NCBI RefSeq assembly: GCF_000025325.1
Contig: NC_013743.1
Location: forward strand, 2,976,001-3,040,000
Source of the DNA: Haloterrigena turkmenica DSM 5511
Lineage (GTDB): Archaea; Halobacteriota; Halobacteria; Halobacteriales; Natrialbaceae
Reading direction: 5' to 3'
Length of the DNA stretch: 64,000 nucleotides
Under the pieces are notes generated by a model. That model saw nothing but the letters and a program-made list of their open reading frames with translations. It was not told the DNA's origin and searched no databases. The position numbers were made by a program, and so were the translations under genes. Of the stretch, positions 47,225 through 63,976 are shown one piece after another (position 1 is the first letter of the stretch; each line of letters begins with the position of its first letter).

Positions 47225-47273
47225 GATAACAGACCCTGCGAAGAGGGTCAACGAGGAATGCTAAAAGTTTTTC

Positions 47274-47303: not shown

Positions 47304-47428
47304 TTGGTGTGGGACGGGAGCGGGTTGGTGGAACGTGTACGCGTCACCGTCCGCGGCGCAGCGATCGCGCTCACGGGAGCCACGCCGGCGGACCCGTCGA
47401 CGCGCCCGTTCGCCCCAAACCACCGGCG

Positions 47429-47436
47429 GTTAAGAG
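47429..47436 (+). promoter_or_regulatory. Putative TATA box for carS
   Basis: GGTTAAGA about 27 bases before the ATG at 47459. Confidence 0.45.
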
Positions 47437-47458
47437 ACCCGGGTTCGTTCCGGCGGAT

Positions 47459-48004
47459 ATGGCAATCCTCGAGACAATCGTGATCGCGTTCTGGGCGATG
47501 TTGCCCGCATACGTTCCCAACAACGCCGCGGTGTTGGCCGGCGGCGGGCGACCGATCGACGGCGGCCGAACGTGGGGCGACAAACGCATGCTGGGCGACG
47601 GCAAGACCTGGCGGGGCACCGCCGCCGGAATCGTCGCTGGCCTCGCGCTGGCGGGCCTCCTGACGGTGCTCGCGCCGGCCGTCGCCGACGCGACCGGGAT
47701 CGACGTCCCCGAGTTCGAACCCCTCGCGGCGCTGGGTCTCGCCGCCGGGGCCATGCTCGGCGACATCCTCGCGTCGTTTCTCAAACGCCGCACCGGTCGC
47801 CAGCGCGGCGCGATGTTCCCTGGGCTCGATCAACTGGACTTCGTCGTCGTCTCGCTTCCCCTGACGGCGCTGCTGGCGCGGGAGTGGTTCTTCGAGGTCT
47901 TCACAGTGGGGGTCGTCGCCGTCGTCGTGATCCTCACGCCGATCCTGCACGTGACGACCAACATGATCGCGTACAAACTCGGGCTGAAGAACGAGCCCTG
48001 GTAG
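47459..48004 (+). CDS. carS: CDP-archaeol synthase CarS
   Basis: 181 residues with about four or five membrane helices. It transfers CTP to 2,3-di-O-geranylgeranylglyceryl phosphate to make CDP-archaeol, a precursor of ether phospholipids. Typical start AILETIVIAFWAMLPAYVPN, the cytosolic loop GRTWGDKRMLGDGKTWRG (GDGKT), then GAMLGDILASFLKRRTGRQR, PGLDQLDFVV, and the C-terminal HVTTNMIAYKLGLKNEPW, which is diagnostic. The frame opens upstream, but this ATG with its TATA box fits best. Confidence 0.95.
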   Translation: MAILETIVIAFWAMLPAYVPNNAAVLAGGGRPIDGGRTWGDKRMLGDGKTWRGTAAGIVAGLALAGLLTVLAPAVADATGIDVPEFEPLAALGLAAGAMLGDILASFLKRRTGRQRGAMFPGLDQLDFVVVSLPLTALLAREWFFEVFTVGVVAVVVILTPILHVTTNMIAYKLGLKNEPW

Positions 48005-48168: not shown

Positions 48169-48915
48169 TCACTCGGCCGTTACTGCTGCTTCGACCGCCT
48201 TGCCGTCGTCCTGTAGGCGTTCTTCGGCGGCCTCGCGGTCCTCGGGGTAGCCCACGTCGATGCGCCAGCCGTCCATCCGGATCGCGTCGATGGTCCGCCC
48301 CGACTGGATCAGCAGGTCGATCGCGTCCGGCAGTTCGTACTCGCCGCGGTCGCTGGGCTGGACGAGGTGACAGGCGTGGAAGATCGCCGGCGTGAACGTG
48401 TAAAAGCCCGTCATGACGAGGTTCGACGGCGGGTCGTCGGGCTTCTCGACGACCTCGACGATCTCGCCGTACTCGTTCGTGTCGAGCACGCCGTAGCGGG
48501 AGGCCTCCTCGTAGGGCACCTCCTCGACGAGGAACGCGGCGTCCGCGCGATCCTCCTGCTGGCGGTTGACGACGTCCCCGAGGTTCCCGCGGAAGACGTT
48601 GTCCCCGAGCATGAGGACGAAGTCCTCGTCGATGTGGGGTTCGGCCTGGAGGATCGCGTGAGCGAGGCCGAGCTGTTTGCGCTGGTGAGCGTAGGTGATC
48701 GGAACGCCCTCGTACTCGTCGCCGTAGCGCTCGATGATCTGTTCCTTCTGGTAGCCGACGACGACGACGATGTCGTTGACGCCGATCTCGAGGAGGTTAT
48801 CGAAGACGTCCTCGATGAGGGGTTTGTCGTTTACCTCGACGAGGACCTTCGGTTTGTCGTCGGTGAGCGGCCGGAGGCGGGTGCCTTTTCCGGCTGCTAA
48901 AACGACTGCTTGCAT
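48169..48915 (-). CDS. Sugar-1-phosphate nucleotidyltransferase (AglF/RfbA-like)
   Basis: 248 residues. Nucleotide-binding AAGKGTRLRPLTDDKPKVL at the N-terminus, LGLAHAILQAEP, the metal Asp region LMLGDNVFRGNL, and SRYGVLDTNEYGEIVEVVEK, typical of glucose-1-phosphate uridylyl or thymidylyltransferases. In Haloferax the AglF homolog makes UDP-glucose for N-glycans. The ATG at 48915 faces a flippase gene on the same strand, so it likely supplies an activated sugar for the glycan locus. UTP or dTTP preference is not decidable. Confidence 0.85.
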   Translation of the reverse strand: MQAVVLAAGKGTRLRPLTDDKPKVLVEVNDKPLIEDVFDNLLEIGVNDIVVVVGYQKEQIIERYGDEYEGVPITYAHQRKQLGLAHAILQAEPHIDEDFVLMLGDNVFRGNLGDVVNRQQEDRADAAFLVEEVPYEEASRYGVLDTNEYGEIVEVVEKPDDPPSNLVMTGFYTFTPAIFHACHLVQPSDRGEYELPDAIDLLIQSGRTIDAIRMDGWRIDVGYPEDREAAEERLQDDGKAVEAAVTAE

Positions 48916-49243: not shown

Positions 49244-50698
49244 TTAGCCGCTTGAGAGGATTGGGAGGCCGAACGGGACGTTCTGGTCGACGACCGTTCG
49301 GAACTCCGTCGAAATCGCCAGTAGCACAGTGAAGTAGACGCCCGCGCCGAGGCTGACAAGCAACACGACGGTCGCGACGTTGTGATTAAGCAGTCTATAG
49401 GTCGACTCCGTCCAGAGCCCGGCGTACACCACGCCAGCCATGAGGACGGCAGCGAACCACTGTTTGGCGATCTCGCCCGTCGGGACCGCGAAGTCGATGA
49501 TCGTGTCCACGTGGTAGTACGCCAGCACGAGGCTGGCCGCGACCGAGACCGTCGTTGCCACCGCCGCACCGAGCCAGCCGTACAGAGAGATCAACCCGAC
49601 GTTGAGCGTGACGTTGATCGCGACGAACACGACGTTGACTCTGAATGCGAGATCGGGACGGTCGATCGCATTGAGGGTGTTCAACAGCTGGTTCTGATAC
49701 CCCATGAGGAGGTTCGCGACGATCAGCACCGTTAGAATGGTCGACCCTTTCGGGAACTCTGGGCCGTAGATCCGGAGAATGCGCTCGCCGAGCAACGCTC
49801 CGCCGAACAACCCGGGAACCAGAAAGAGCCCGCCGAACGAAAGCGACTGTTCGACTATTCGTGCGACGACCTGTGAGTCCTCCTCCGCCGAGAGCGAACT
49901 TATTTCGGGAAACAGGGTTGAGCTGAGCGCGCCGCTAAAGAGGATGAGAAACTCCGCGATATTCCAGGCCGCCGCGTAGACGCCGATCAGCCCCGAGGAC
50001 ACGAACACCCCGAGGACGATAATATCGGTATAGCTGAACATCTTCGACTGGAGACTACCAAGCCAGGAGAACTTCGCGAAGTCGACGAGCCGTTCGAAAT
50101 GTCGGCGCTTAGGTCGGGAAAGGTCCGGTAAGTTTCGAGCGATAAAGAAACCGCCGATGCCAATGACGAGACAGTATCCGACGATGTGTCCTGTAAACAG
50201 TCCAGCTGTGCCCGCACCGGTGGCGATGAGAGCGATTTGAAGCAGCGCTCGGCCTCCAGTCCGCACCGGAGATAACACGCCGCTTACGTGTACCAAATGT
50301 AGTCCGACGAGGAGCGAGTTTATCAGACTATTGAGGAGGACTACCAACAGGATCAACACGATATATCCTGTGGCGGGATACCCGATGTAGTCGGCGACCT
50401 GCGTTCGAAACAATACGAGTCCACAGGCGACAAGAACGAACAGACTGAAGATGATAGTCGTCCCCGCGAGTGCGTACTCGCCCCGGTCTTCTCCCTCCGA
50501 GACCCGTTTCGATATCGCTCCAGACAGACCGACTTTCCCTGCGATGGCGAGCCATGAAACGAGTCCGATGGCAACGCTGTAAACGCCGAGCGGACCCGGA
50601 CCAAGCATTCTGGCGATGTAGATGGTCGCCAGAAATCCGAGCCCCGATGCGAAGAGTTTCGAAAGGAAATATATGATAGAGGTTTGGCCGAGACGCAT
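49244..50698 (-). CDS. Flippase of the MATE/Wzx (MOP) superfamily
   Basis: 484 residues, about 14 membrane helices. The start MRLGQTSIIYFLSKLFASGLG with IYIARMLGPGPLGVYSV, then SGAISKRVSEGEDRGEY, SSLSAEEDSQVV and IAEFLILFSGALSSTLFPE are typical of polysaccharide-unit exporters (Wzx, AglR-like). It would move the lipid-linked glycan to the outer face of the membrane. It precedes and runs with the nucleotidyltransferase gene, and its codon usage is less GC-biased than that of the housekeeping genes. Confidence 0.88.
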   Translation of the reverse strand: MRLGQTSIIYFLSKLFASGLGFLATIYIARMLGPGPLGVYSVAIGLVSWLAIAGKVGLSGAISKRVSEGEDRGEYALAGTTIIFSLFVLVACGLVLFRTQVADYIGYPATGYIVLILLVVLLNSLINSLLVGLHLVHVSGVLSPVRTGGRALLQIALIATGAGTAGLFTGHIVGYCLVIGIGGFFIARNLPDLSRPKRRHFERLVDFAKFSWLGSLQSKMFSYTDIIVLGVFVSSGLIGVYAAAWNIAEFLILFSGALSSTLFPEISSLSAEEDSQVVARIVEQSLSFGGLFLVPGLFGGALLGERILRIYGPEFPKGSTILTVLIVANLLMGYQNQLLNTLNAIDRPDLAFRVNVVFVAINVTLNVGLISLYGWLGAAVATTVSVAASLVLAYYHVDTIIDFAVPTGEIAKQWFAAVLMAGVVYAGLWTESTYRLLNHNVATVVLLVSLGAGVYFTVLLAISTEFRTVVDQNVPFGLPILSSG

Positions 50699-50861: not shown

Positions 50862-51809
50862 TTAATCCGCGTACCCCAGCGCCTCCAATCGATCCGCTAT
50901 CTCGTCGTCGTCCAAATCTCCTTCGGACTCGATGGGATCCGAACTACGGATCTCGCGACGTTCGTCCGCATCGATGACCAGCCACGGGACCTCGCGGAGC
51001 GTCGGCGTACTGAACCCTTCCATGTGGCCCCAAACACGGCTCGTGAACGGGAAGACCCGCTCACCGAGCATCTCCCCATGATCGGCGGTGACAACGGACT
51101 TTCCGGAGACCTCCTCGAGCAGTTCCTCGACGTGATCGAGCGCTATCTCGAGGCTTTCGGTATAGGCATCACGGATCTCCTGAAACGTTACGTCCCGCTG
51201 TTTGACTGCGCCCCAGATCTGGATTCCCTCCTCGTGTTTCCCGTATCCCTGAAGGTCCAGTCGACGCCGCAGTTCGTCCGCCGTTTCCCCGAGGTAAGGA
51301 CGATGAGGCTGCATGAAATGAACGATAAGTCGCTTGTCGGGATACTGCTCGTGGGCTTCGATCGCCGCGCTGACGACATCGTCCGGCTGGACCGTTCCGA
51401 TGTCTTCATCCCATCGATCGGCGTGTAGGTGATCGATGTGATAGAACGTGTCCTCATCGAGATCGGTCGAAAACGGGTTCGCCGTCACGTAAACGGTATC
51501 GTGAAATTCTCCGATCGCGAAGTTCTCCCGCATGAATTCCCAGCTTTTCTTCCCTTTCGACGGCGCCTTATAAAGCGTCCCGTCGACCGTGTTGAGACGC
51601 TCGAAATAGTCGTACCGACAGGCATCGAGAATGAACAGGTTGTCCCAATCCTCTGCCATCACATCGATCCCCTCCCCGTATTTTCGATCGGTGTATTTTC
51701 CGTATCCCTTATGGATTGGCCAGCTAGTCAACCTAACGGCCTCTCGGCCAATCAGAACTGGGTTTCGTATCGCCCGTTTTAAGTTCTCAAATGTGTAGTG
51801 ATTCTTCAT
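50862..51809 (-). CDS. AlkP-superfamily sulfatase/phosphatase-like enzyme, paralog 1
   Basis: 315 residues from the ATG at 51809 (MKNHYTFENLKRAIRNP), chosen because it aligns with the start of paralog 4; an ATG at 51842 is also open. Metal ligands of the alkaline-phosphatase fold are seen: Asp62 in FILDACRYD, TADHGEMLGE with Asp243 and His244, and WGHMEG with His262. Another conserved His169 is in FMQPHRPYLG. A candidate nucleophile is Ser89 (KKSWEF), 27 residues after Asp62. There is no CxPSR sulfatase signature. It may remove or transfer a phosphate or sulfate group on the glycan. Confidence 0.8.
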   Translation of the reverse strand: MKNHYTFENLKRAIRNPVLIGREAVRLTSWPIHKGYGKYTDRKYGEGIDVMAEDWDNLFILDACRYDYFERLNTVDGTLYKAPSKGKKSWEFMRENFAIGEFHDTVYVTANPFSTDLDEDTFYHIDHLHADRWDEDIGTVQPDDVVSAAIEAHEQYPDKRLIVHFMQPHRPYLGETADELRRRLDLQGYGKHEEGIQIWGAVKQRDVTFQEIRDAYTESLEIALDHVEELLEEVSGKSVVTADHGEMLGERVFPFTSRVWGHMEGFSTPTLREVPWLVIDADERREIRSSDPIESEGDLDDDEIADRLEALGYAD

Positions 51810-51912
51810 AATACTGGTGTGGAAGGGTGTCTGAATGGACATTGCCCCTACTCAAGGCACTTTCGTCATTCCAACACTGTCCGCTTTGCGGCCGACAGCC
51901 GATCGTAAGACG

Positions 51913-53067
51913 CTACTGACTCTGCATCTCTCGAAGCGTCTCTTCTAGCGTCGTAGTGTCGACGACGATGTCGGCCGACTCCGCACGACAATACATCGGT
52001 TCGTAGGACACGCCGAGTGTCGCCGCCAATAGCCGATAGGGCTGCTTGACCTTATCGCCGAACAGTTCTACGAGCGTACAGCCGTCGGCGAAGACAATAT
52101 CAGTGAGGCCGGCTCCATGAGGTCCGACAACGATATCCGCATCTGCGAACAGCCGCGCGTTCCGCTCGAGCGACTGCTCCTCGAGCAGATAGCACGAGAA
52201 ACCGAACCGTGATAGGACGTCCATGACCTCATCCTCGTTTACCACGCGTCGTTCGACGGCGTTGGCCCGCGAGACGTAGACGTTGTCGCCGCTCTTCGGC
52301 GTCGTTTCGGGCGCACTGTCGAGGACCGCTCGGCGGAGCCACCCGAAGTCCTCGGCGCGTCGCTCCGGGAACGAGGGAACGACGAGCCGCGAGACGTCGT
52401 AGGCCGGCGCCGTCGCGTACTCGATCCGCGACTCGGGCCACTCGAGCAACTCGAGCGTTTCATCGACAAACGGCGGCGCGTCTGGCGGCACCAACAGCGT
52501 TACGCGCTCGCCGGTTGCCTCCTCGAACGCCCGGATGTAGCGGATCTTTGGGACTGTCTCGACGATCCAGTGATAGTAGTTCGGATATCGGGGAACGAGC
52601 GGTGCGGCGATGTCCAGCGAGCCCGCGGCCCCGCGGGTGCTGCCCGGGCGCGGTCCCGACAACAGGTCACGGAGCGGGGCGTCGCCGTAGAACAGCTGTC
52701 TGGAGAGCATCGCCATCATCGCCTGCTGGGCCTGGTCCGGCGCGGCGGCGCTTTCCTCGACGATTTCGAGTTGTGGGGTCAGCACCAGTCCAGTCTCCGA
52801 GAGGATGCGCCCGTTTTCTATGAGCGCGACGAACGGAGGGGACTGCTCCTCGTCATCTCCCGGAACGGTGACCGTTTCGCTCGCGACCGACTCGAGGGTG
52901 TCCCGGGAGACGGTCCGAACGACGCCGTGTTCGACAAGCGGGTCGAAGACGGGTCGGCCAAGGCGTTTCCGGGTTAGCAGATCACCAGCCGCGACGATCG
53001 ATTCCCGAACCCCGTCGGCCGCGAACTTCCGCCTGAGCTTTCGAGAGGCAAACTCCGTCGAGATCAT
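51913..53067 (-). CDS. GT61-family (DUF563) glycosyltransferase
   Basis: 384 residues from the ATG at 53067. The PF04577 core is clear: PRYPNYYHWIVETVPKIRYI, the donor region VYVSRANAVERRVVNEDEV (R-R-x-x-N), SRFGFSCYLLEEQSLERNAR, then DIVVGPHGAGLTDIVFADG, in which GPHGAGLTN-like is diagnostic. Members transfer xylose or GlcNAc in eukaryotes; in archaea they are found in surface-glycan loci and acceptors are unknown. It lies between two AlkP-like genes on the same strand. Confidence 0.8.
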   Translation of the reverse strand: MISTEFASRKLRRKFAADGVRESIVAAGDLLTRKRLGRPVFDPLVEHGVVRTVSRDTLESVASETVTVPGDDEEQSPPFVALIENGRILSETGLVLTPQLEIVEESAAAPDQAQQAMMAMLSRQLFYGDAPLRDLLSGPRPGSTRGAAGSLDIAAPLVPRYPNYYHWIVETVPKIRYIRAFEEATGERVTLLVPPDAPPFVDETLELLEWPESRIEYATAPAYDVSRLVVPSFPERRAEDFGWLRRAVLDSAPETTPKSGDNVYVSRANAVERRVVNEDEVMDVLSRFGFSCYLLEEQSLERNARLFADADIVVGPHGAGLTDIVFADGCTLVELFGDKVKQPYRLLAATLGVSYEPMYCRAESADIVVDTTTLEETLREMQSQ

Positions 53068-53137
53068 GGTTCTGTGGGCGAGTACGCTATCGGTTCCGAC
53101 GGCTCGGATCGCCGTCCGCACGGGGCGAAAACTCCGG

Positions 53138-54097
53138 TCATCGATACCCCAGCGCCTCGAGACGCTCGTCGACGGTGTCCTCGTCAACGCTCTCTCGCTC
53201 GACCGGCGGTTCCGGCCGCACCTCCCTGTGATCGTCACCCTCGACGACGAACCAGGGGACTTTGACCAGTTCCTCAGCGTGGACGCCGTACGGATGCCCG
53301 TACTTCCGGCGGCTCGGGATTGGCGACAGCCGCTCCCCAACGAGGTTGCCGTGGTCAGCCGTAATTACCGACTTGCCGTCGAGCGTCTCGAGGAGGTCGG
53401 CGACCTCCTCGAGTACGACGTCGAGATTCTCCAAATACGCCTCCCAGACCGTCTCTAGGTCCACGTCAGTGGTATCATCGCGAAGCTGGTGCCAGATGCC
53501 CGGTTCCGTCTCTACGCCGTGTTGCGGCTCTCCATCGTGGTCCATCGTCCACCCGCCGCCAACCATGTTCCGGCCGAGTTCCCCGATGAACGGCGCGTGT
53601 GGCTGCATGAAGTGGACGATGAGGCGCTTGTCAGGGTAGGTTTCGTGGGCGTCTGCCGCAGCTCGAGCGACGGTTTCCGGGGTCACGGTCTGTAACTCCG
53701 TGTCCCAATCGCCCAGACAGTCTACGACGGCATGGAAAGTGCCTTCATCGAGATCCAGACGCGGAATGTAGGGATTCGCGTTGACGTAGACGGTATCGTG
53801 GAACTCCACGGTGGCGAAATTCCGTTCGAGGAACTCCTCGCTACTGGACCCTAACGAGATCCGCGACTCCAAGCTACCGTCGATATCGATCCGGTCCGCG
53901 AACATATCGTATCGACAGGCGTCCAAAATCAACAGATTGTCCCAGTCTTCGGACATAATGCGAGTTCCTTTTCCGTGTCGGAGCCGAAAAGCGAGGTTAT
54001 TGAGTTCGATAGGAACGTATCGTAACACACTCTTAGAGGTCCGGAGTAGCCCTCCGCTGGCGTAGAGTTCCTTCGCTTTGCGGAGATGGTGACGCAT
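53138..54097 (-). CDS. AlkP-superfamily sulfatase/phosphatase-like enzyme, paralog 2
   Basis: 319 residues. Asp59 in LILDACRYD, candidate nucleophile Ser86 in GSSSEEFLERNF, TADHGNLVGERLSP and KYGHPYG for metal binding, HFMQPHAPFIG. Here the position after TADHG is Asn rather than the Glu seen in the others. It ends ERLEALGYR, the same C-terminal signature as paralog 1 (LEALGY). No membrane segment is obvious; a substrate among glycan or lipid phosphates or sulfates is inferred from the locus. Confidence 0.8.
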   Translation of the reverse strand: MRHHLRKAKELYASGGLLRTSKSVLRYVPIELNNLAFRLRHGKGTRIMSEDWDNLLILDACRYDMFADRIDIDGSLESRISLGSSSEEFLERNFATVEFHDTVYVNANPYIPRLDLDEGTFHAVVDCLGDWDTELQTVTPETVARAAADAHETYPDKRLIVHFMQPHAPFIGELGRNMVGGGWTMDHDGEPQHGVETEPGIWHQLRDDTTDVDLETVWEAYLENLDVVLEEVADLLETLDGKSVITADHGNLVGERLSPIPSRRKYGHPYGVHAEELVKVPWFVVEGDDHREVRPEPPVERESVDEDTVDERLEALGYR

Positions 54098-54158
54098 ACG
54101 ATGTGGAACTTCCCTCCGGGGAAATAACGTTTCGGTTCAGAGAGCGGCCATTAGTTGT

Positions 54159-55166
54159 TCAAACTTTGTAACCCAATGCCTCTAGTTGTTCATCGAGCTC
54201 TTCCCGAGACATCCGTGCATTATTCGGTTCCTCGACTGTCGGTTCGTGGGTTTCGTTGTCTTCCGCGGACGTAATTACCCACGGGACCTTCCGGATCTGA
54301 GGGTGAAGGCTTCCGAGTTTGTGGCCGAGGATTCCGTACTCGCCGAACGCTTCGCCGTGGTCGGAAGAGATTGCCACTCGGTTCGCGTTCAAATTATTCA
54401 GGAGGAGTCCAATGTCATCCAAGACGTATCGAAGATCGCTCATGTACGCCTCCCAAATGCTGTCGAGGTCCCCTGTTTCGTAGTAATAGTTCCACCAGTC
54501 GTACTCGTGATACTCCAAGTCACGATCCTCTTCGAGTGCTTTCGAAAACCAAGGCGTATGCGGTTGGTGATACTGGAGGATAAGACGATCAAAGTCACGT
54601 TCGCGCCCAACCGAGATCGCGCGGTCGGTCACGTATCTCGGTGGCGTGTTTCCTTCCGTATGTCCGAACGGCCCCTCTTCTCCGATGGTTTCGAATTTAA
54701 AAAGATACTCCGCCTTACCGAGTTCGCTTATATCTACGGACGGAAAGAGGCGAAGCGTCTTAAATGGCAACGGTCTATCGCTATCGGTCTCGTGGACCTT
54801 TGTGTCTAACACCTCTTGGATATGGCTCTGAGCCGATAGGAACGCAGTTTCCCGGATTTGATCGAGATGTTGTTCGTCGAACGTACGGGCGAGCCATTCG
54901 GCGGACGCACCCCCTACCGACCAGATACTGTCGACGGTATTGATAAAGTCGTACTCATCTTGGACGATGCGCATAGCGTCCACTCGACACGTATCGAGTA
55001 GGATCAGAACGTCCCACTTACGATCAAATACGTTCGTTCCGATCGTTCGGTGGCCGTTGACGGCGATTGCTGGAACTCTGTATAGATAGTCAAGTAAGAC
55101 CGAATCAACCACTCGAGACGGATTTTTCAGTCCTTTCAGTATATTCTCCTGATTGAGATCCGGCAT
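54159..55166 (-). CDS. AlkP-superfamily sulfatase/phosphatase-like enzyme, paralog 3 (divergent)
   Basis: 335 residues from the ATG at 55166 (MPDLNQENILKGL); the frame opens to 55241. The fold is kept but the motifs vary: ILLDTCRVD (Asp58), candidate Ser88 in GGASAEW, YHQPHTPWFS, and SSDHGEAFGEYGILGHK for the metal site. It ends LEALGYKV. The DNA is AT-richer than the neighbours, with many A/T-ending codons, which suggests a separate origin by transfer. Confidence 0.75.
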   Translation of the reverse strand: MPDLNQENILKGLKNPSRVVDSVLLDYLYRVPAIAVNGHRTIGTNVFDRKWDVLILLDTCRVDAMRIVQDEYDFINTVDSIWSVGGASAEWLARTFDEQHLDQIRETAFLSAQSHIQEVLDTKVHETDSDRPLPFKTLRLFPSVDISELGKAEYLFKFETIGEEGPFGHTEGNTPPRYVTDRAISVGRERDFDRLILQYHQPHTPWFSKALEEDRDLEYHEYDWWNYYYETGDLDSIWEAYMSDLRYVLDDIGLLLNNLNANRVAISSDHGEAFGEYGILGHKLGSLHPQIRKVPWVITSAEDNETHEPTVEEPNNARMSREELDEQLEALGYKV

Positions 55167-55329
55167 AGTGTTTAAGTGTTCGGTTGTGAGTCTCCCCTTC
55201 TCAATCTTAATGCTATCGGTCAGAACGACCCCGGGTATCATCGCAAAAGCATACTGACGTATGTTAGCTTGTCATGTGAATCGCAACTACCAAACTAGAG
55301 TTTAAAGTAGCCGAAATTTGACCCAGTAC

Positions 55330-56265
55330 ATGATGGAACGATACACGCTTGAGAATATCAAAAAAGTGCTTCAGAGACCGGAATACGTCCTCTGGGAACT
55401 CCAACGAATCGCGTTCGATCTGCGCCACAGCGGTGACTCAGTTGACGTGATGGAACAAGACTGGGACAATCTTATTCTCCTTGACGCCTGCCGTTACGAC
55501 CGTTTTGAAGCGCAAAATACGATGTCTGGCGATCTCTCGGCCGTCGTCTCACATGGGGGCCGAAGCTGGGAGTTCATGAAAGGGAACTTCGTTGGCGAGC
55601 AGTACCATGACACCGTCTATGTGACCGCTAATCCCCACACTGAAAAGTTGGCCGACGACGTGTTCCACGCAGTTCATCCCCTCTATATCGATGAATGGAA
55701 CGAAGAGCGCGAAACTGTGCTTCCGGGCGACGTCGTCGACGCGGTACTGGACGCATACGAGCGGTACCCGAACAAACGGATCATCGCGCACTTCATGCAG
55801 CCCCACCGTCCCTATCTTGGTCCGACTGCGGAAACGCTACAGGAGGAGTACAATATCCGCGGGTTCAACCGAAACATCGCCCACATCGGGGCACGGACGG
55901 ACCAACCCTCGTACGCGACGCTCCTCGAGCGGGGCGAAATCCCGATCGACAAGACCCGCCAGGCCTATCGCGAGACGCTCGACATCGTACTTGACCACGT
56001 GACGTCGCTCACCGAGCAACTCACCGGCAAGACCGTCGTTTCGGCAGACCACGGCGAAATGCTCGGTGAGCGACTGACTCCGTTGACAAAGCCCAAGTTC
56101 GGCCATTCATTCAAATACATCCGCAATCGGACGCTGTACGTCGTCCCGTGGCTAGAGTTGGAGGCAGACGCTCGACGCGACATCACGAGCGACGAACCGA
56201 TCGCCTTCGAGCGGGCCGAGTCCGCCACGGTCGAAGAACGTCTTCGGTCGCTGGGATACAAGTGA
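55330..56265 (+). CDS. AlkP-superfamily sulfatase/phosphatase-like enzyme, paralog 4
   Basis: 311 residues from the ATG at 55330 (55333 is equally possible; a TTG at 55318 is less so). Asp52 in LLDACRYD, candidate Ser79 in GGRSWEF, HFMQPHRPYLG, SADHGEMLGERLTP and FGHSFKY. It is closest to paralog 1 in the N-terminal MERYTLENIKK block. It runs divergently from the other three paralogs, with a 163-base gap containing a TTTAAAG sequence near 55301, about 27 bases before a leaderless start. Confidence 0.8.
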   Translation: MMERYTLENIKKVLQRPEYVLWELQRIAFDLRHSGDSVDVMEQDWDNLILLDACRYDRFEAQNTMSGDLSAVVSHGGRSWEFMKGNFVGEQYHDTVYVTANPHTEKLADDVFHAVHPLYIDEWNEERETVLPGDVVDAVLDAYERYPNKRIIAHFMQPHRPYLGPTAETLQEEYNIRGFNRNIAHIGARTDQPSYATLLERGEIPIDKTRQAYRETLDIVLDHVTSLTEQLTGKTVVSADHGEMLGERLTPLTKPKFGHSFKYIRNRTLYVVPWLELEADARRDITSDEPIAFERAESATVEERLRSLGYK

Positions 56266-56596
56266 ACCCGCATCCGAAACTCCCGGACTCCGTGTCATCA
56301 GACGGCTCGATACTATCGCAGCCATGGATGAGGAGTCGCGACCATCCACCCCGATTCGACTGTCGATGCTTGCGAGTGGCCAACAGGGGAGCTGACATCA
56401 CTCCCGCTGGGGACTTCGAACGGGTCATTCGACACTGTCTCCGCTCTGTTCGCCTTCCCGAAGCGTGCGTTCAGGGAGACCCAGGGCATTCGGCGAATGT
56501 CGGGGGGCCAACGATAACCGTTCCGAACGACGCGAGGCGCCTGGCAAGCCATAGAGCGTCAGGTACTTGTAGTACACGCAGCATTATGAGGCAACT
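56266..56596. other. Intergenic region, no confident gene
   Basis: Open frames here are shadows with mixed composition. A GTAC-N5-GTAC inverted repeat at 56563-56575 lies 22 to 34 bases before the FkbM gene start at 56597 and could be a binding site. Some of the region may be decayed coding sequence. Confidence 0.35.
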
Positions 56597-57412
56597 ATGA
56601 CCCTTCTACACCGGGCGTATCGACTGTTCCGCTCGGAGGGCGCTGGAGCGGTCGCGAGCGGGGCCCGAAAGAAGATCCTCGCTCGGTTCGATCCGATCTA
56701 TCAGCGGACAAAGCCCGAGTACAAGCGGTATTCGGTCGGCGACGCGAGTGCCGAGTTCGACATGTCCCGCCGCCGGCTGGGTCGACACGACTTCGCCGAC
56801 GACATCCGCTCCGAACGGTCGCTCATTGAACGCGTCCTCTCGGCCGTTGAGGCGGACGACGTGTTCTACGATGTCGGCGCGAACGTCGGTATCTACTCCT
56901 GTCTGGTCGGAAGCCGGCTAGGATCAGGGCACGTTGTCGCCTTCGAGCCGACGCCGGACGCCTACAACGTCCTCCGCCGGAACGTCGACCGAAACGACGC
57001 GCCGGTCGAGACGTTCAACGTCGCGCTGTCCGACACGAACGGAACGACCCGAATGGCCGTGAACGGACGGACAGGCCACCAGTTCGCCGACGGCCGCGAC
57101 GGGACCCTCGAGATCGAGACGCGACGCGGCGACGACCTCGTCAGCGAACGTGACCTCCGGCCGCCGAATGTCTGCAAGATCGATATCGAAGGGGCGGAGT
57201 ATCTCGCGCTCGAGGGGCTTCGCGAGACACTCAACGATCCGGCCTGTCGTCGCGTCTTCTGTGAGATACACACGGAGAAGATACGGGAGATCGGGGGCAG
57301 TGCCGACGAGGTGGAAACGCTCTTTCGGGAACTGGGCTTCGAACTCAAGTTCCGCGGCGACCGGCGCGCGAACTATTTCATCGAGGCGAGTCGGTCGGCC
57401 GAACACCGATGA
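56597..57412 (+). CDS. FkbM family methyltransferase
   Basis: 271 residues. SAM-binding motif VFYDVGANVGIYSC near residue 95, AFEPTPDAYNVLRRNVD, and CKIDIEGAEYLALEG (D-x-E-G-x-E) are characteristic of FkbM proteins, which often O-methylate a sugar. Within this locus it could methylate a hexose or hexuronic acid of the glycan. The start ATG at 56597 follows the inverted repeat described above. The GT4 gene begins 10 bases downstream, so they form an operon. Confidence 0.88.
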   Translation: MTLLHRAYRLFRSEGAGAVASGARKKILARFDPIYQRTKPEYKRYSVGDASAEFDMSRRRLGRHDFADDIRSERSLIERVLSAVEADDVFYDVGANVGIYSCLVGSRLGSGHVVAFEPTPDAYNVLRRNVDRNDAPVETFNVALSDTNGTTRMAVNGRTGHQFADGRDGTLEIETRRGDDLVSERDLRPPNVCKIDIEGAEYLALEGLRETLNDPACRRVFCEIHTEKIREIGGSADEVETLFRELGFELKFRGDRRANYFIEASRSAEHR

Positions 57413-57422
57413 GAAGAGACGA

Positions 57423-58553
57423 ATGACGCGAATCGCCCTCGTCACCCCACGATACCCGCCGACCCACGCCGGCGGCGGAGAGATCAGCGCTCGGCTGCTC
57501 GCCGAGCAGCTCCACGCTCGAGACGCCGTCGACGAAGTGGTCGTCTACTCGTTCGACGGCGAGTCCACGGAGACGGTCGGGGGGGTTCCGGTCTTCCGGC
57601 TCGCGGACGTTCCGCAGTACCCCTACACCCTGCCGAACGAGATCGCCTACCGGAAGCTCAGGGCGGTCGGGCCAGACCCTGACGTGATCCACGCGTACAA
57701 CATGCACCTCCATCCCGCCGTGGGACGGCTCTCCGCGACGCTCGACGTTCCCGCGGTGGCGACGCTGAACGCGTACCCGCTCGTCGACTGGGCAGAGGTG
57801 AACGTGAGCCCCTCGCTCAAGCGCCGACTGTACGAACGAACACTGCTGCGCCTCGAACGGCCTCGTCTACTGGAGCAGATGGCGAACATCGGCCTATTTC
57901 TGCCGCTTAGCAGCGCTGTCGAGCGGGTCTACCGGAGCCACGGGCTCGAGACTGCCGACTACGAAGTGATCCCAAATATGCTCGATCCGTCCTTCGAGGT
58001 CCCCGCCGATGGGACCGAGGAGACGGATCAGGTGGAGCTGCTGTATGTCGGCTATCTCCGGGACACGAAGGGGGTACGGTATCTCGTCGACGCGATGGAT
58101 CGCCTCCCGGAGCAGATCGAACTGACGGTCGTCGGCGACGGGCCGGAGCGGGACGCGCTGGAAGCCCGCGCCGCGAAAGCTGCCGCATTCGACAGGATCG
58201 AGTTCACCGGCTCGGTCCCCTACGAGGAGGTTACTCGAGCGTACGCGGACGCGGACGTGTTCGTCCACCCCGGCGTCTGGCCGGAGCCGTTCGGTCGGAC
58301 GATTCTCGAGGCGATGCAGGCCGGACTCCCGGTTGTTGCGACGGACATCGGCGGTCCCGCGGAAACCGTCCCCCAGTCGGAACTGCTGGCCGAACCCGGC
58401 GATCCGGCGAGCCTGAGCGAGAGCATCGAATACGCCGTCACGAACCGCGACCGGATCGGCCGTGAGAACCGACAGTTCGTCGAAGAGCAGTATCATCCGG
58501 ATGTTGTCGTTCCGCGGTTTCACGACGTCTACGAGCGCGTCCGCCGGGACTGA
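57423..58553 (+). CDS. GT4-family glycosyltransferase (first)
   Basis: 376 residues from the ATG at 57423. GT-B fold: N-terminal RIALVTPRYPPTHAGGGEIS, central EVIPNMLD, the donor-binding TVVGDGPERDALE, and HPGVWPEPFGRTILEAMQAG with the conserved EPFG...E motif, then GLPVVATDIGGPAETV. It transfers a sugar from a nucleotide donor to the lipid-linked glycan, retaining anomeric configuration. Acceptor and sugar unknown. It overlaps nothing but is packed behind FkbM and 76 bases before the next GT4 gene. Confidence 0.9.
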   Translation: MTRIALVTPRYPPTHAGGGEISARLLAEQLHARDAVDEVVVYSFDGESTETVGGVPVFRLADVPQYPYTLPNEIAYRKLRAVGPDPDVIHAYNMHLHPAVGRLSATLDVPAVATLNAYPLVDWAEVNVSPSLKRRLYERTLLRLERPRLLEQMANIGLFLPLSSAVERVYRSHGLETADYEVIPNMLDPSFEVPADGTEETDQVELLYVGYLRDTKGVRYLVDAMDRLPEQIELTVVGDGPERDALEARAAKAAAFDRIEFTGSVPYEEVTRAYADADVFVHPGVWPEPFGRTILEAMQAGLPVVATDIGGPAETVPQSELLAEPGDPASLSESIEYAVTNRDRIGRENRQFVEEQYHPDVVVPRFHDVYERVRRD

Positions 58554-58629
58554 CGCCGAACGGACGCGCTCTCAGTCACCGACGGGAGACCCGTGAAGGA
58601 TATGGCCGTTGGTCAACGAAACGAACGTA

Positions 58630-59796
58630 ATGACCGATTTCGGAGCGGCCGATCGAGAGCTGGCGGTCGCCCACTGGGGCGAACACGCTAACGGTGGCGG
58701 CGATCGCCTCGCTTGGGAACTCGCACGGGTCTTCGAGGACGCACCGTTCTACGTCGGCTGGCGCGACGAATCCATCGAGCCGGCCGATATCGAGGCCGAA
58801 CAGCTCATCCAAGATCGGCTGCTGAACCGCGCCCTCGAACAGGGTGGACTGGCACGCCAGCTCGCCCATCTCGTGGGGTGGCAGCTCGCGTCGCCGCTGC
58901 GGGAGTACGACATCCTCGTCACGAGCGGGAACGAGCCGCTGTTTTACGTCGCTCCAACCGAGCAGACGTGGGTCGCGTATATTCATCACACGAACCGCAG
59001 ACAATCGGATCAGATCACCGAGATCGAATCTGCACGGTTCCCTCGGCTCCAATTGCTCGTTTACTACGCGATCCGTGTCCTGTTCGATCACAACACTCAT
59101 CGACCCGATCTCTATGTCGTCAACTCCGAACTCGTCAAGCGTCGAGTCGAGCGGTACTGGGGCGTCCCGAGTGAGAAGATCCGCGTTGTGTATCCGCCCG
59201 TCGATACCCACAAATACAATCCGACCGACGAGGAGACGGAAGAGTACTACGTGACCCTATCGCGGCTGGATTGGCACAAAGATATCGACGGGATCGTCAG
59301 AGCATTCAACGAACTTGAGCAGCGACTACTCGTCGCCGGTGACGGGCCCGAGCGCGAGCGCCTCGAACGCATGGCCGGCGACAACGTCGAGTTTCTGGGG
59401 TTCGTCGACGAGGCCGAGAAACAGCGCCTACTATCGGGTGCGAAAGCGTTTGTATTCAACGGCCGTGACGAGGACTTCGGGATTGCTCCAGTCGAAGCGC
59501 TGGCGGCCGGTACGCCACTGCTCGGGGTCAAGGAGGGAATGACACAGTTTCAGGTCGTCGACGGGAAGAACGGCTATCGACACACTCGAACAGGAGAGAC
59601 CGGACCGTCCCTTACCGAGACGATTCGCCGGTTCGAGAAAGAAGGGGTCGATTGGTCTGCGTCGGAGATTGCCACTTTCGCCGACCGCTTCTCCGTAGAT
59701 GCGTTCCATGACAGTATGCGAGACGCAGTCGATACGGCGGTCTCGAACGCTGACATCACCCCCTCCTGGTACGAACAGTACGAATCGGACAACTGA
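58630..59796 (+). CDS. GT4-family glycosyltransferase (second)
   Basis: 388 residues from the ATG at 58630; a TTG at 58609 is less likely. GT-B: VAHWGEHANGGGDRLAWELA, SELVKRRVERYWGVPSEKIR, VVYPPVDTHKYNP, LSRLDWHKDIDGIVRAFNEL, VAGDGPERERLERMAGDNVE, and FNGRDEDFGIAPVEALAAGT (E-D-F-G-I-...E). It is similar to mannosyltransferases of archaeal and bacterial glycans. It would add another sugar to the same glycan as the upstream GT4. Confidence 0.9.
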   Translation: MTDFGAADRELAVAHWGEHANGGGDRLAWELARVFEDAPFYVGWRDESIEPADIEAEQLIQDRLLNRALEQGGLARQLAHLVGWQLASPLREYDILVTSGNEPLFYVAPTEQTWVAYIHHTNRRQSDQITEIESARFPRLQLLVYYAIRVLFDHNTHRPDLYVVNSELVKRRVERYWGVPSEKIRVVYPPVDTHKYNPTDEETEEYYVTLSRLDWHKDIDGIVRAFNELEQRLLVAGDGPERERLERMAGDNVEFLGFVDEAEKQRLLSGAKAFVFNGRDEDFGIAPVEALAAGTPLLGVKEGMTQFQVVDGKNGYRHTRTGETGPSLTETIRRFEKEGVDWSASEIATFADRFSVDAFHDSMRDAVDTAVSNADITPSWYEQYESDN

Positions 59797-59817: not shown

Positions 59818-60777
59818 TTACGTGCTACTTACGGTGTCGCTCTCAACGGTCAGTTCTGTTCGATCCATTTCGATTAACCCGTACAGGTAACCGAACCCGA
59901 CCGCCGCGGTAAAAATAAAGATCGTCACGAGCTGCTTCGCTTTCGCACTCGAGGGCCGTCGCACGAGATCCGACAGCCGCTCCGGAACGAACTCGAGCAT
60001 GAGATCCCGTAGATACTCGTTTTTATCACCCTTCGCCTCGGGCAGCAGCAGATCCATGATCCGTTTCGAGTATCCCTGCCAGAACGATCGGAATACCAGC
60101 CACTGGAAGTCCCCACGATAGTCGAACAGTTTGTGATGGACCACCGCATCCGTGTTGTAGATCACGCCCCGTCCGTACTTGTTCGCGATTCGAATGCAGA
60201 CGGGCGCCTCGTGGGCCTGGATGTGGCGATCGCCGTGGCGGCCCGTGTTCTCGTCGTAGCCGCCGACGTTCAAGAACACCTCGCGGCGAAACGAGATGTT
60301 CGAGCCGTACGTGTTCCGCAGTTCTTCCATGTGCTCGCCCATGCCGCGCTCGTCACAGCCGACAAGCCAGTAGAACTCCGCCGGGAAGAAGTCGGGTTTC
60401 TCGGTCACCCAATCAGGAGCGACGTGGCCGCCGACGGCGAGGGCGTCGGTCTCCTCGTAGACGCGAGCCAGTTCCGCGACCCAGTCGTCCTCGGCCACGG
60501 CGTCGTCGTCGATGAACGCGACGACGTCGCCGGTGGCGATCTCGGCGCCTCGAGTCCGACTGTGCGAAATTCCCTGATTCTCGTCGTTACAGTGCAAGAC
60601 GACGTCATCGAGGCCCCCGTAATCGTTTTGGACTTGTTCGAAGACCGGTTCGTTCCCGTCGACGAGGATGACAACCTCGAGCGGGTCGTAGGTTTGTGAG
60701 AGGACGCTGTCGACGCACTCGGAGAAGACGTCGTAGCGATCCATCGCGTAGGTACAGATAACGACGGAGACCTTCAT
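59818..60777 (-). CDS. GT2-family glycosyltransferase (AglG/AglI-like)
   Basis: 319 residues from the ATG at 60777. GT-A domain: MKVSVVICTYAMDRYDVFSE, SQTYDPLEVVILVDGNEP, the DxD-like VAFIDDDAVAEDDWVAELA, and RREVFLNVGGYDENTGRHGD. A C-terminal hydrophobic stretch (about 283-300, LVTIFIFTAAVGFGYLYGL) would anchor it to the membrane. The style matches haloarchaeal AglG and AglI (hexuronic acid transferases acting on dolichol phosphate). It is convergent with the second GT4 and divergent from aglB. Confidence 0.87.
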   Translation of the reverse strand: MKVSVVICTYAMDRYDVFSECVDSVLSQTYDPLEVVILVDGNEPVFEQVQNDYGGLDDVVLHCNDENQGISHSRTRGAEIATGDVVAFIDDDAVAEDDWVAELARVYEETDALAVGGHVAPDWVTEKPDFFPAEFYWLVGCDERGMGEHMEELRNTYGSNISFRREVFLNVGGYDENTGRHGDRHIQAHEAPVCIRIANKYGRGVIYNTDAVVHHKLFDYRGDFQWLVFRSFWQGYSKRIMDLLLPEAKGDKNEYLRDLMLEFVPERLSDLVRRPSSAKAKQLVTIFIFTAAVGFGYLYGLIEMDRTELTVESDTVSST

Positions 60778-60947
60778 CGAGACTCGATTGCGATGACCGC
60801 AGAATAAGCTTTTTCCTTCAAACACCTCGAACGGTCGTTCTCGAACGCGAATAGCAATCCGATAGCGATAGTCAACGAGACCGAAAACTGCCGGAGGTGT
60901 GGGTGTTAGGGCTCCCGGATATCAAACGTCGGTCGGTAGATGACAAG

Positions 60948-60979: not shown

Positions 60980-63976
60980 ATGAGTACGGACACCGAACAC
61001 GTCGAGGAGGACTCCGAGACGTCATCCTCCCTCCTCGAGACGTGGTCTGACTGGTATCACATCCCCGTGCTCGGGGCTGTGATGCTGTTTATGTTCTGGG
61101 TGCGGACCCAGGCGTACGACCGATTCGTTACCGAAGACGGGAGTCCCGCCCTCGCGGGCGTCGACTCGTGGTATCACTGGCGAACAATCGAATGGACGGC
61201 GGAGAACTACCCGAACACGATGCCCTACGAGGTGTGGACCGGGTTTCCGGAAGGCAACTACGTCGGCCAGTTCGGTACCCTGTTCGACCAACTAATCGTC
61301 ACGGTCGCGATGATCGTCGGGCTCGGCAATCCGTCGACTGAGACCGTCTACACCGTCGCACTACTGATGATCCCGGCGATGGCCGCGCTCGTGGCGATTC
61401 CGGTCTTCTACGCGGGTCGGCGCCTCGGCGGCACGCTCGGGGGCATCGTCTCCGTGCTCGTGCTCGCACTCGCGAAAGGGCAGTTCCTGACGCGGTCGAC
61501 GGTCGGCCAGCTCGACCACCACGTCGGCGAGGTGCTGTTCATGGCGATCGCCGTCGTCGCGATGATGGTCGCGCTCACCGTCGCCGAGCGCGACCAGCCG
61601 ATCTACGAACTGGTCGTCGACAGGGACTGGGACGCGCTGCGAACGTCGACCATCTACAGCGTCCTCGCCGGGGTCGCGCTCACGCTGTACATCTGGGTCT
61701 GGCCCTCGGCGGTCCTCCTGGTCGGTATCTTCGGCGTCTTCTTCGCCGTGCAACTCTGCTTCGACTACCTCCGCGGGATCTCGCCGGACCACGTCGCCTT
61801 CGTCGGCGCGGTGAGCCTCGGCGTGACCGCGATCCTGACGCTCCTCCTGATGGAACAGCCCGGAAGCACGAGTTCGACGAGCTTCGGACTGCTCCAGCCC
61901 CTCGCCGCCTTCCTCGTGGCCGTCGGCTGCGTCTTCATGGCCTGGGTCGCCCGCCAGTGGAACGATCGCGATATCGAGCGGCGGTACTACCCCGTTGCCA
62001 TCGCCGGCCTCATCGCCGCGGCGCTGCTGGCGATGTGGCTTCTCCTGCCCAGCCTGTTCGACTCGATCGTCGGGAACGCGACGCGGCGCATGCTCCCGTT
62101 TGGCGGAACGGCCACCGACCTCACGATTTCCGAGGCCCAACCCCCGGAGAACTTCCTCGACAGCGTCTTTAGCGAGTTCGGAAGCGCGTTCTACACGATG
62201 CTCGCCGGCCTCGCTTTCATCGTCATTCGCCCGCTGTTCGGCCGCAAGATCCGCGCCGAGCACACGCTGGTCGTCGTCTGGACGCTGTTCCTGATCAGCA
62301 TGGCGGCGACGCAGGTTCGCTTCTCGTACTACCTCGTGCTCGGCGTCGCGGTCGTCAACGCCGCGTTCGTCGCGGAGTTCGTTCGCCTCTTCGATCTGGA
62401 CCTTCAGGCGAGCCTCGAGTCGATTCGCGGAATCGAGACCTATCAGGTGATCGTGCTTTTCCTCGTCGTGATCCTGCTGTTCGCGCCGCTACTCCCGCCG
62501 ATCGCCGCCGACGATACGACCTCTTGGGAACAAGCCAATAGCACCGGCCCGTCCTACGACGCCACCATGGTCTGGGAGGGGTCGAACGAGTGGCTCGCCA
62601 ACAACACGCCCGCGCCGGGCAACTGGGGCGAGCACGAAAACGCCGATCAGCTCGAGTACTTCGGATCGTACGACCGCCCCGCCGACGGGGATTACGACTA
62701 TCCCGAAGGCTCCTACGGCGTGATGTCGTGGTGGGACTACGGCCACCTGATAACGACGCAGGGCGAGCGGATCCCCCACGCGAACCCGTTCCAGCAGAAC
62801 GCGCCGTCCGCCTCGGCGTTCCTGACCGCCGAGTCCGAGGAACGCGGCGAACTGGTCCTCGATACCATCGCCGCCGGCGAGAACCCGGCCGACAAGTCCA
62901 CCGAGGAACTCGAGTCGCTGTCCGAGGGCGCCACCCACGAGCAGATGCGGTACGTGATGGTCGACTACGAGATGGCGGCCGGGAAGTTCTCCGCGATCAC
63001 CGCGTGGTCCGGGCCGAACTACGAACACTACGTGACGCCGTCGGGCCACGAGGACGGAGAGCCGGTGAACATCAATGACTACCAGAACGGGACCATCCCC
63101 TACTACGACACGATGCAGTCCCAGCTGTACTTCGACGACGCGGACGGGCTCGAGCACTACCGGACCGTCCACGAAAACGCCGACGCTGGGACGGCGACGA
63201 TCGCCACCTACGCGAATGTGTTCGTCCCCGGCGCCATTCAGGGACAGGTCGCCCAGGAGCTGCAGGAACTGGGCTACCAGGAGGGTGACGTGATCTACTA
63301 CCAGGACGGCGAGTTCGCGGCGCCCGGCGAGGGACGTCCGTCGGTAGCGATACAGCAGATGGGATTCCAGCGGATTCAGAGCATCCAACAGAACCCGACC
63401 CAGCAGCTACTGGGCGTCCGGAGCGCCGCCGCGGTGAAGACGTTCGAACGCGTCGAGGGCGCGACGCTCACTGGCACCGTCGACGACGCAGACGACGTGC
63501 TCGGAAACGAGACGACGGCCACCGTCGAGGTCGAACTCGAGACGAACGCCGGTCGGACGTTCAACTACACGCAGGAGACCGAAGTCGCCGAGGACGGCTC
63601 GTTCGAACTGACCGTTCCCTACGCGACCAACGACGAACTCGGCGTCGAGGACGGCTACACGGACAGCGCCGTCGAAGCGACCGGCGAGTACGACGTGACC
63701 GTCGGCGAACCGGGCGAAACCGGCTACGCGGCGGAGACGGCCGTCCCCGAGACCGCAGTGGTTCAGGGCGAGACCATCACCGTCGACGGGTTCGAGCAGA
63801 CCGAACTCGAGGACCCCGACGAGTCGGAAGACGGCAACGAGACCGACGGCAACGAAACCGACGGCGGCTCGACGGACGGAAACGAAACCGACGGCGGGAA
63901 CGAAACCGACGACGGCAACCAGACCGACGGCGGCAACGAAACCGGTTCGGACGGCGCCGAAGCCGAGGACAACTAA
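60980..63976 (+). CDS. aglB: Oligosaccharyltransferase AglB (STT3 family)
   Basis: 998 residues. It moves the lipid-linked glycan to asparagine in N-x-S/T sequons of exported proteins. About 12 or 13 membrane helices occupy residues 30-515. The first metal Asp62 is in AGVDSWYHWRT, and STT3 hallmark WWDYGH is at 584-589 in the soluble domain. A beta-rich C-terminal domain follows. The last about 60 residues are a low-complexity Gly/Asp/Glu tail with six closely packed N-E/Q-T sequons. The start is ATG at 60980. It ends 24 bases before the window edge, complete. Confidence 0.95.
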   Translation: MSTDTEHVEEDSETSSSLLETWSDWYHIPVLGAVMLFMFWVRTQAYDRFVTEDGSPALAGVDSWYHWRTIEWTAENYPNTMPYEVWTGFPEGNYVGQFGTLFDQLIVTVAMIVGLGNPSTETVYTVALLMIPAMAALVAIPVFYAGRRLGGTLGGIVSVLVLALAKGQFLTRSTVGQLDHHVGEVLFMAIAVVAMMVALTVAERDQPIYELVVDRDWDALRTSTIYSVLAGVALTLYIWVWPSAVLLVGIFGVFFAVQLCFDYLRGISPDHVAFVGAVSLGVTAILTLLLMEQPGSTSSTSFGLLQPLAAFLVAVGCVFMAWVARQWNDRDIERRYYPVAIAGLIAAALLAMWLLLPSLFDSIVGNATRRMLPFGGTATDLTISEAQPPENFLDSVFSEFGSAFYTMLAGLAFIVIRPLFGRKIRAEHTLVVVWTLFLISMAATQVRFSYYLVLGVAVVNAAFVAEFVRLFDLDLQASLESIRGIETYQVIVLFLVVILLFAPLLPPIAADDTTSWEQANSTGPSYDATMVWEGSNEWLANNTPAPGNWGEHENADQLEYFGSYDRPADGDYDYPEGSYGVMSWWDYGHLITTQGERIPHANPFQQNAPSASAFLTAESEERGELVLDTIAAGENPADKSTEELESLSEGATHEQMRYVMVDYEMAAGKFSAITAWSGPNYEHYVTPSGHEDGEPVNINDYQNGTIPYYDTMQSQLYFDDADGLEHYRTVHENADAGTATIATYANVFVPGAIQGQVAQELQELGYQEGDVIYYQDGEFAAPGEGRPSVAIQQMGFQRIQSIQQNPTQQLLGVRSAAAVKTFERVEGATLTGTVDDADDVLGNETTATVEVELETNAGRTFNYTQETEVAEDGSFELTVPYATNDELGVEDGYTDSAVEATGEYDVTVGEPGETGYAAETAVPETAVVQGETITVDGFEQTELEDPDESEDGNETDGNETDGGSTDGNETDGGNETDDGNQTDGGNETGSDGAEAEDN
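63835..63950 (+). repeat. Short tandem repeats encoding the AglB sequon-rich tail
   Basis: Repeated 12- to 15-base units of the form GGCAACGAAACCGACGG, six of which encode N-E-T or N-Q-T. Such repeats often vary in copy number between strains. Confidence 0.8.

Follow-up and report, generated by a model that had tools for sequence, protein, structure and literature searches.

Four AlkP-type paralogs in an AglB-anchored N-glycosylation locus of Haloterrigena turkmenica are probable N-glycan sulfotransferases

The window analyzed here is a 64,000-nucleotide stretch of Haloterrigena turkmenica DSM 5511 (contig NC_013743.1, positions 2,976,001 to 3,040,000), and all coordinates below refer to it unless another locus is named. 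The section from 48.2 to 64.0 kb constitutes an N-glycosylation locus with the AglB oligosaccharyltransferase at its end, larger than the region of 50862-56265 to which an earlier note had drawn attention. On the minus strand it contains a sugar nucleotidyltransferase (48169..48915; PF00483, 156.5 bits), which starts with MQAVVLA as VNG1055 does (judged from the fw-1055 primer, PMC11980604), a flippase-like polysaccharide exporter of the MATE/MurJ/Wzx type (49244..50698; PF01943, PF13440), and a GT61 glycosyltransferase (51913..53067; Pfam PF04577, 81.9 bits, 6.6e-23), whose ORF extends to 53340 with the probable start ATG, by reading, at 53067. Further along lie two GT4 glycosyltransferases on the plus strand (57423..58553, PF00534, 124.9 bits, with an ORF from 57150 and a likely start, by reading, at 57423; and 58609..59796, PF00534, 82.7 bits), a GT2 glycosyltransferase on the minus strand (59818..60825; PF00535, 82 bits), and AglB itself on the plus strand (60980..63976; STT3, AglB_core-like and AglB_L1 domains). 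An FkbM-family methyltransferase on the plus strand (56597..57412; PF05050, 79.4 bits; TIGR01444, 111.7 bits) is a candidate for sugar methylation. The enzyme methylating the terminal uronic acid of the dolichol-phosphate (DolP)-linked Halobacterium glycan has been stated to be undefined (PMC11980604), and this FkbM protein is a candidate for a methylation of that type. In addition, a CDP-archaeol synthase (CarS-like) gene (47309-48004) directly flanks the glycan locus, and an M24 peptidase gene (46046-47251) lies near it.

Within this locus are four paralogous genes, all full-length ORFs: A (50862..51842, minus strand, 326 aa), B (53138..54097, minus strand, 319 aa), C (54159..55241, minus strand, 360 aa), and D (55318..56265, plus strand, 315 aa). 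The description of three minus-strand copies and one plus-strand copy, interleaved with a GT61 enzyme, was therefore correct, the GT61 gene sitting between A and B. Pairwise identities are 38-45% among A, B and D and 24-26% between C, the most divergent copy, and the others. Even for the distant pair A and C, the likeness is not due to chance, because BLASTP aligned the greater part of the two proteins with E = 2e-14. The four proteins could be aligned over their full length with 45 invariant columns, including D73, R76, S95, S100, H180, D254, H255, H273, and a terminal LxxLGY (numbering of A). Among 127 homologs, W66, D67, D73, R76, P179, D254 and H255 are present in all, H273 in 126 and H180 in 122, and the LxxLGY tail, found in all four paralogs as the earlier note had claimed, recurs in 119 of the 127 homologs and in 41 of 46 relatives of ~500 aa. 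Some of the proposed motifs had to be adjusted. The Asp assigned to LLD(A/T)CR is invariant and the motif around it reads (I/L)LD(A/T)CR; the TADHG-type metal site has this exact form in A and B only, with SSDHG in C and SADHG in D; and the single invariant Ser proved to be one of two such serines, S95 and S100.

None of A-D passed the Pfam and NCBIfam cut-offs. For Pfam Sulfatase (PF00884, gathering score 25 bits), three copies scored 17.2, 11.5 and 18.8 bits and one had no match; for PglZ (PF08665, cut-off 25 bits), A, B and D reached only 11.8, 15.0 and 13.1 bits; and the STM4013/SEN3800 family hydrolase model (NF038075) matched C weakly at 28.9 bits, far below its 250-bit cut-off. The P-loop families of PAPS-dependent sulfotransferases (PF00685/PF13469) had no match in A-D, whose fold is of the AlkP type instead. 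The formylglycine activation signature C/S-x-P-x-R is absent from all four, and the relaxed pattern [CS]x[PA]xR, allowed at any position, is found in 12 of the 127 homologs. Neither transmembrane nor export signals were found in A-D (maximal 19-residue hydropathy 0.42-1.08, with no lipobox or Tat motif), nor was an N-terminal multi-pass membrane domain of the EptA/MCR or LtaS kind. A search of solved structures with A by sequence alone returned nothing relevant.

Structure prediction, which had been proposed as a check, was run on A and C, while B and D were placed by alignment. The AlphaFold2 models were confident for both A (94 natural homologs; pLDDT 91.7, pTM 0.90) and C (63 natural homologs; pLDDT 84.6, pTM 0.85) and matched AlkP enzymes at Z 13-16. 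Hence the assignment to the AlkP superfamily held, and models without an AlkP fold, the contrary outcome named beforehand, did not appear. The best structural match was EptA in both cases (A: Z 15.8, rmsd 4.0, 209 aligned residues; C: Z 14.7, rmsd 3.1, 215 aligned residues), followed for A, at Z 14-15, by arylsulfatases, phosphonate monoester hydrolases and iduronate-2-sulfatase. The result for C was alike, and the top matches of the two models comprise Thr-nucleophile transferases (EptA, ICR, MCR) and glycan sulfatases. Since Z differences below 1 are treated as ties, the fold is AlkP and the chemistry is not readable from the rank of the matches. According to these models, A and C have an AlkP fold, and the conserved D73, D254, H255 and H273 correspond to its Asp/His metal site. 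The EptA/MCR phosphoethanolamine transferases share with A-D the fold, a hydroxyl nucleophile and metal-binding acidic/His residues, but differ in having an N-terminal membrane domain, a site outside the cytoplasmic membrane, and phosphoethanolamine as the moved group. Formylglycine sulfatases (PF00884; for example iduronate-2-sulfatase 5fql and the GAG 2-O-sulfatase BT1596) likewise have the fold in common (Z 13.5-14.3) as well as a D/H metal site, whereas A-D are much smaller, lack CxPxR and fall below the Pfam cut-off.

The putative active site was located by profile-profile alignment to the ~500-aa PF00884 proteins (probability 99.2, E 6e-20). Proteins of this type in related loci mostly lack CxPxR, and their nucleophile column holds Thr in 31, Ser in 11 and Cys in 3 of 46 sequences. 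S100 of A, which is Ser or Thr in 127/127 homologs, falls on this column, D73 aligns with the first metal Asp, and D254-H255 with the second metal site. S95 is less likely than S100 to be the nucleophile because it is Ser in 124 of the 127 homologs, Thr in 2 and Ala in 1, and lies off the nucleophile column. What is new here is that the formylglycine sulfatase signature is missing and Ser/Thr occupies the nucleophile column, and the alignment points to an intermediate bound covalently to Ser/Thr, comparable to that of EptA.

The cassette was found again in six relatives, namely Natrinema thermotolerans, N. mahii, Halorubrum kocurii, a Haloquadratum MAG and two Haloarchaeobius, which span Natrialbaceae, Haloferacaceae and Halorubellaceae; AglB is in view in three of the six. 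Orthologs of A and B occur in all six and still neighbour GT61 and the flippase when other families are compared, while D orthologs (56-82% identity) are present in four and C proper in three (N. thermotolerans, Haloquadratum and one Haloarchaeobius). An additional C-like copy, 54-56% identical to C, exists in five of the six relatives and is missing from the window. In N. thermotolerans, this fifth paralog (L023:4511-5527) lies between the methyltransferase and D, and the window has a gap at 56266-56596. In the tree, each window protein falls into a separate clade that it shares with proteins of three families (SH-aLRT 98-100), for example B in a clade of 8 rows (SH-aLRT 100) and D in one of 5 rows (SH-aLRT 99). 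A recent tandem duplication was rejected on this basis, because the separate, well-supported clades are common to three families. Judged by the tree, the four copies are old and separately maintained. Beyond the locus, other family members are encoded elsewhere in the same genome, several adjoining larger PF00884-like proteins or glycosyltransferases. A bacterial member was also detected in Candidatus Aminicenantes (CP070825.1; L096:9908-10825) within a flippase/glycosyltransferase locus, which suggests transfer between domains; the same locus also carries a canonical Sulfotransfer_3 gene (L096:14535-15407).

A functional precedent comes from Halobacterium salinarum, in which Agl30 (VNG1056C) and Agl31 (VNG1057C), AlkP-domain proteins encoded in an AglB-anchored cluster, were identified in 2025 as N-glycan sulfotransferases required for sulfation of IdoA-3 and GlcA-4 (PMC11980604). 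Deletion lowers and expression raises sulfation, and expression of either gene in Hfx. volcanii leads to sulfation of its pentasaccharide (PMC11980604). Sulfation takes place on the DolP-linked glycan (PMC11980604), a stage that fits the lack of membrane or export signals in A-D. Besides the AlkP class and the AglB-anchored cluster, the two groups share the C-terminal LxxLGY: the Agl30/31 reverse primers of PMC11980604, translated here, end in ...HLEDLGYL and ...LEELGYT, so that the tail may be a mark of the Agl30/Agl31 group. InterPro gives Agl30 no family beyond the AlkP-like superfamily, just as A-D have no Pfam family, and Agl31 is soluble and cytosolic, in keeping with the lack of a membrane segment in A-D. 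In contrast to A-D, Agl30 is membrane-associated, and Agl31 belongs to InterPro's arylsulfatase family while A-D remain below the Pfam cut-off. The Halobacterium cluster has two copies plus VNG1063H, a third AlkP gene with no detectable effect on the glycan (PMC11980604), compared with four copies in the window. Primer sites of Agl30/Agl31 were found in none of 13 Halobacterium genomes, and we infer the homology of A-D to Agl30/31 from the common tail, domain class and context. Another gene of an N-glycan locus, agl7 (HVO_2046) of Haloferax volcanii, is needed to sulfate a lipid-linked hexose of the low-salt N-glycan (PMC3871713). With a precedent in another species, the hypothesis of the earlier note was largely anticipated by published work.

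We also examined the supply of activated sulfate. Neither ATP sulfurylase (PF01747) nor APS kinase was found in the genome of the window (99.99% complete), where the apparent APS-kinase hit was FtsY instead (TIGR00064, 305 bits); therefore, no PAPS donor route is visible. Among 116 haloarchaeal genomes of at least 95% completeness, 104 contain the AlkP-type family (E <= 1e-20) and only six (G021, G039, G054, G080, G085 and G106) encode a full-length APS kinase (at least 149 bits), the other listed hits scoring 30 bits or less. As G021 has no member of the family, APS kinase accompanies it in 5 of the 104 carriers, and 99 have no recognisable one. No full APS kinase was detected in 13 Halobacterium genomes other than that of Hbt. 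salinarum and one Haloferax genome, and a ~180-aa Halobacterium hit was a general AAA_33 kinase. The CysD cut-off was reached by none of the 116 genomes. The PF01747 search covered the genome of the window and the wider survey covered APS kinase and CysD; a non-homologous APS kinase would escape it. A CysD-like PP-loop protein of the PAPS_reduct family (L134:616-1587), nearly universal in haloarchaea and scoring 85 bits to NF003587 (cut-off 195), may represent a diverged ATP sulfurylase; its neighbours, inspected by eye in the ORF list, offered no clue. Two of the rare haloarchaeal APS kinases (L139:1592-2443 and L140:4143-5003) each adjoin a YqcI/YcgG-family gene, the first being followed by a cytidylyltransferase-like domain. 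Of these two loci, the APS-kinase loci that were inspected, L140 also has a PF13469/PF00685-like sulfotransferase gene in its neighbourhood, which would agree with a distinct PAPS system. Among the literature searched, no paper on PAPS as the halobacterial sulfate donor was found, and PAPS is unmentioned in the 2025 and 2026 papers on the N-glycan sulfation pathway.

The fold, the motifs, the genomic context and the conservation of four distinct groups, which this analysis shows, are best accounted for if A-D are position-specific N-glycan sulfotransferases, each modifying a different hydroxyl, and we consider this reading probable. The earlier note had left it undecided whether phosphate or sulfate is added or removed. 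These options can now be narrowed: addition of sulfate, on the cytoplasmic side, is favoured by the published precedent (PMC11980604), the absent formylglycine signature, the lack of an export signal and the Ser/Thr nucleophile. The suggestion in the earlier note of several modified glycan positions receives indirect support from the linkage to AglB and the four separately conserved ortholog groups.

It is somewhat unlikely that at least one copy is non-catalytic or acts on another glycan, a lipid or an O-glycan, in which case copy number would not equal the number of N-glycan positions; this would be compatible with a sulfotransferase role for the other copies. VNG1063H, with no detectable role in its cluster (PMC11980604), and the family members lying away from AglB in the same genome speak for such a division, but every conserved active-site residue is kept in all four copies, and the position of A and B next to the GT61 and flippase genes is conserved across other families, that of C and D in a subset. 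Transfer of a phosphate-containing group to glycan hydroxyls in the manner of EptA or LtaS, for example of glycerophosphate with archaeal phospholipids or nucleotide precursors as its source, appears unlikely. It would agree with the highest structural scores, which belong to phosphoethanolamine transferases and are near or tied with those of sulfatases, with a hydroxyl rather than formylglycine nucleophile, and with the PAPS pathway not found in the genome. However, EptA-type enzymes work extracellularly and possess membrane domains, which A-D lack, and to our knowledge no phosphodiester-bearing haloarchaeal N-glycan is known. Moreover, the sole functional precedent in such loci is sulfation (PMC11980604). 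That A-D are hydrolases that strip the glycan or sugar precursors of sulfate or phosphate, in trimming or quality control, is improbable: the fold is common to sulfatases and phosphonate monoester hydrolases and there is weak Pfam Sulfatase similarity, but the formylglycine signature is present in none of A-D, a cluster that conserves four removing enzymes but has no adding one is unlikely, and the precedent enzymes add sulfate (PMC11980604).

For A-D as sulfotransferases, the chemistry, the donor, the acceptor positions and the order of action are deduced rather than observed. The metal site formed by D73, D254 and H255 (with H180 and H273) would activate the Ser/Thr nucleophile S100, and the sulfuryl group would pass from an activated donor to a covalent enzyme intermediate and then to the sugar, comparable to Thr with phosphoethanolamine in EptA. 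Acting in the cytoplasm, each of A-D would decorate a different hydroxyl of the DolP-linked N-glycan, which would then be flipped and transferred to protein by AglB. More tentatively, haloarchaeal N-glycan sulfation might in general depend on PAPS-independent AlkP-fold transferases that use a sulfo-Ser/Thr intermediate and a non-PAPS donor, for example APS supplied by the divergent CysD-like PP-loop protein or an as yet undescribed compound. In such a scheme, the family would have grown to at least four position-specific copies per locus; we regard it as possible, though not the likelier case.

A-D are ordinary in kind, being probable additions to the AlkP-type archaeal N-glycan sulfotransferase group, and their four-fold diversification and the missing PAPS route are of greater note. 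The present analysis supplies residues to mutate and, with 99 of 104 carriers having no recognisable APS kinase, raises the donor of the archaeal AlkP-type sulfotransferases as a question. Loci with four copies, which differ among related genomes, make position specificity testable gene by gene. Compared with the Halobacterium tetrasaccharide and its two sulfates, the N-glycan of this organism is predicted to carry more decorations or different ones.
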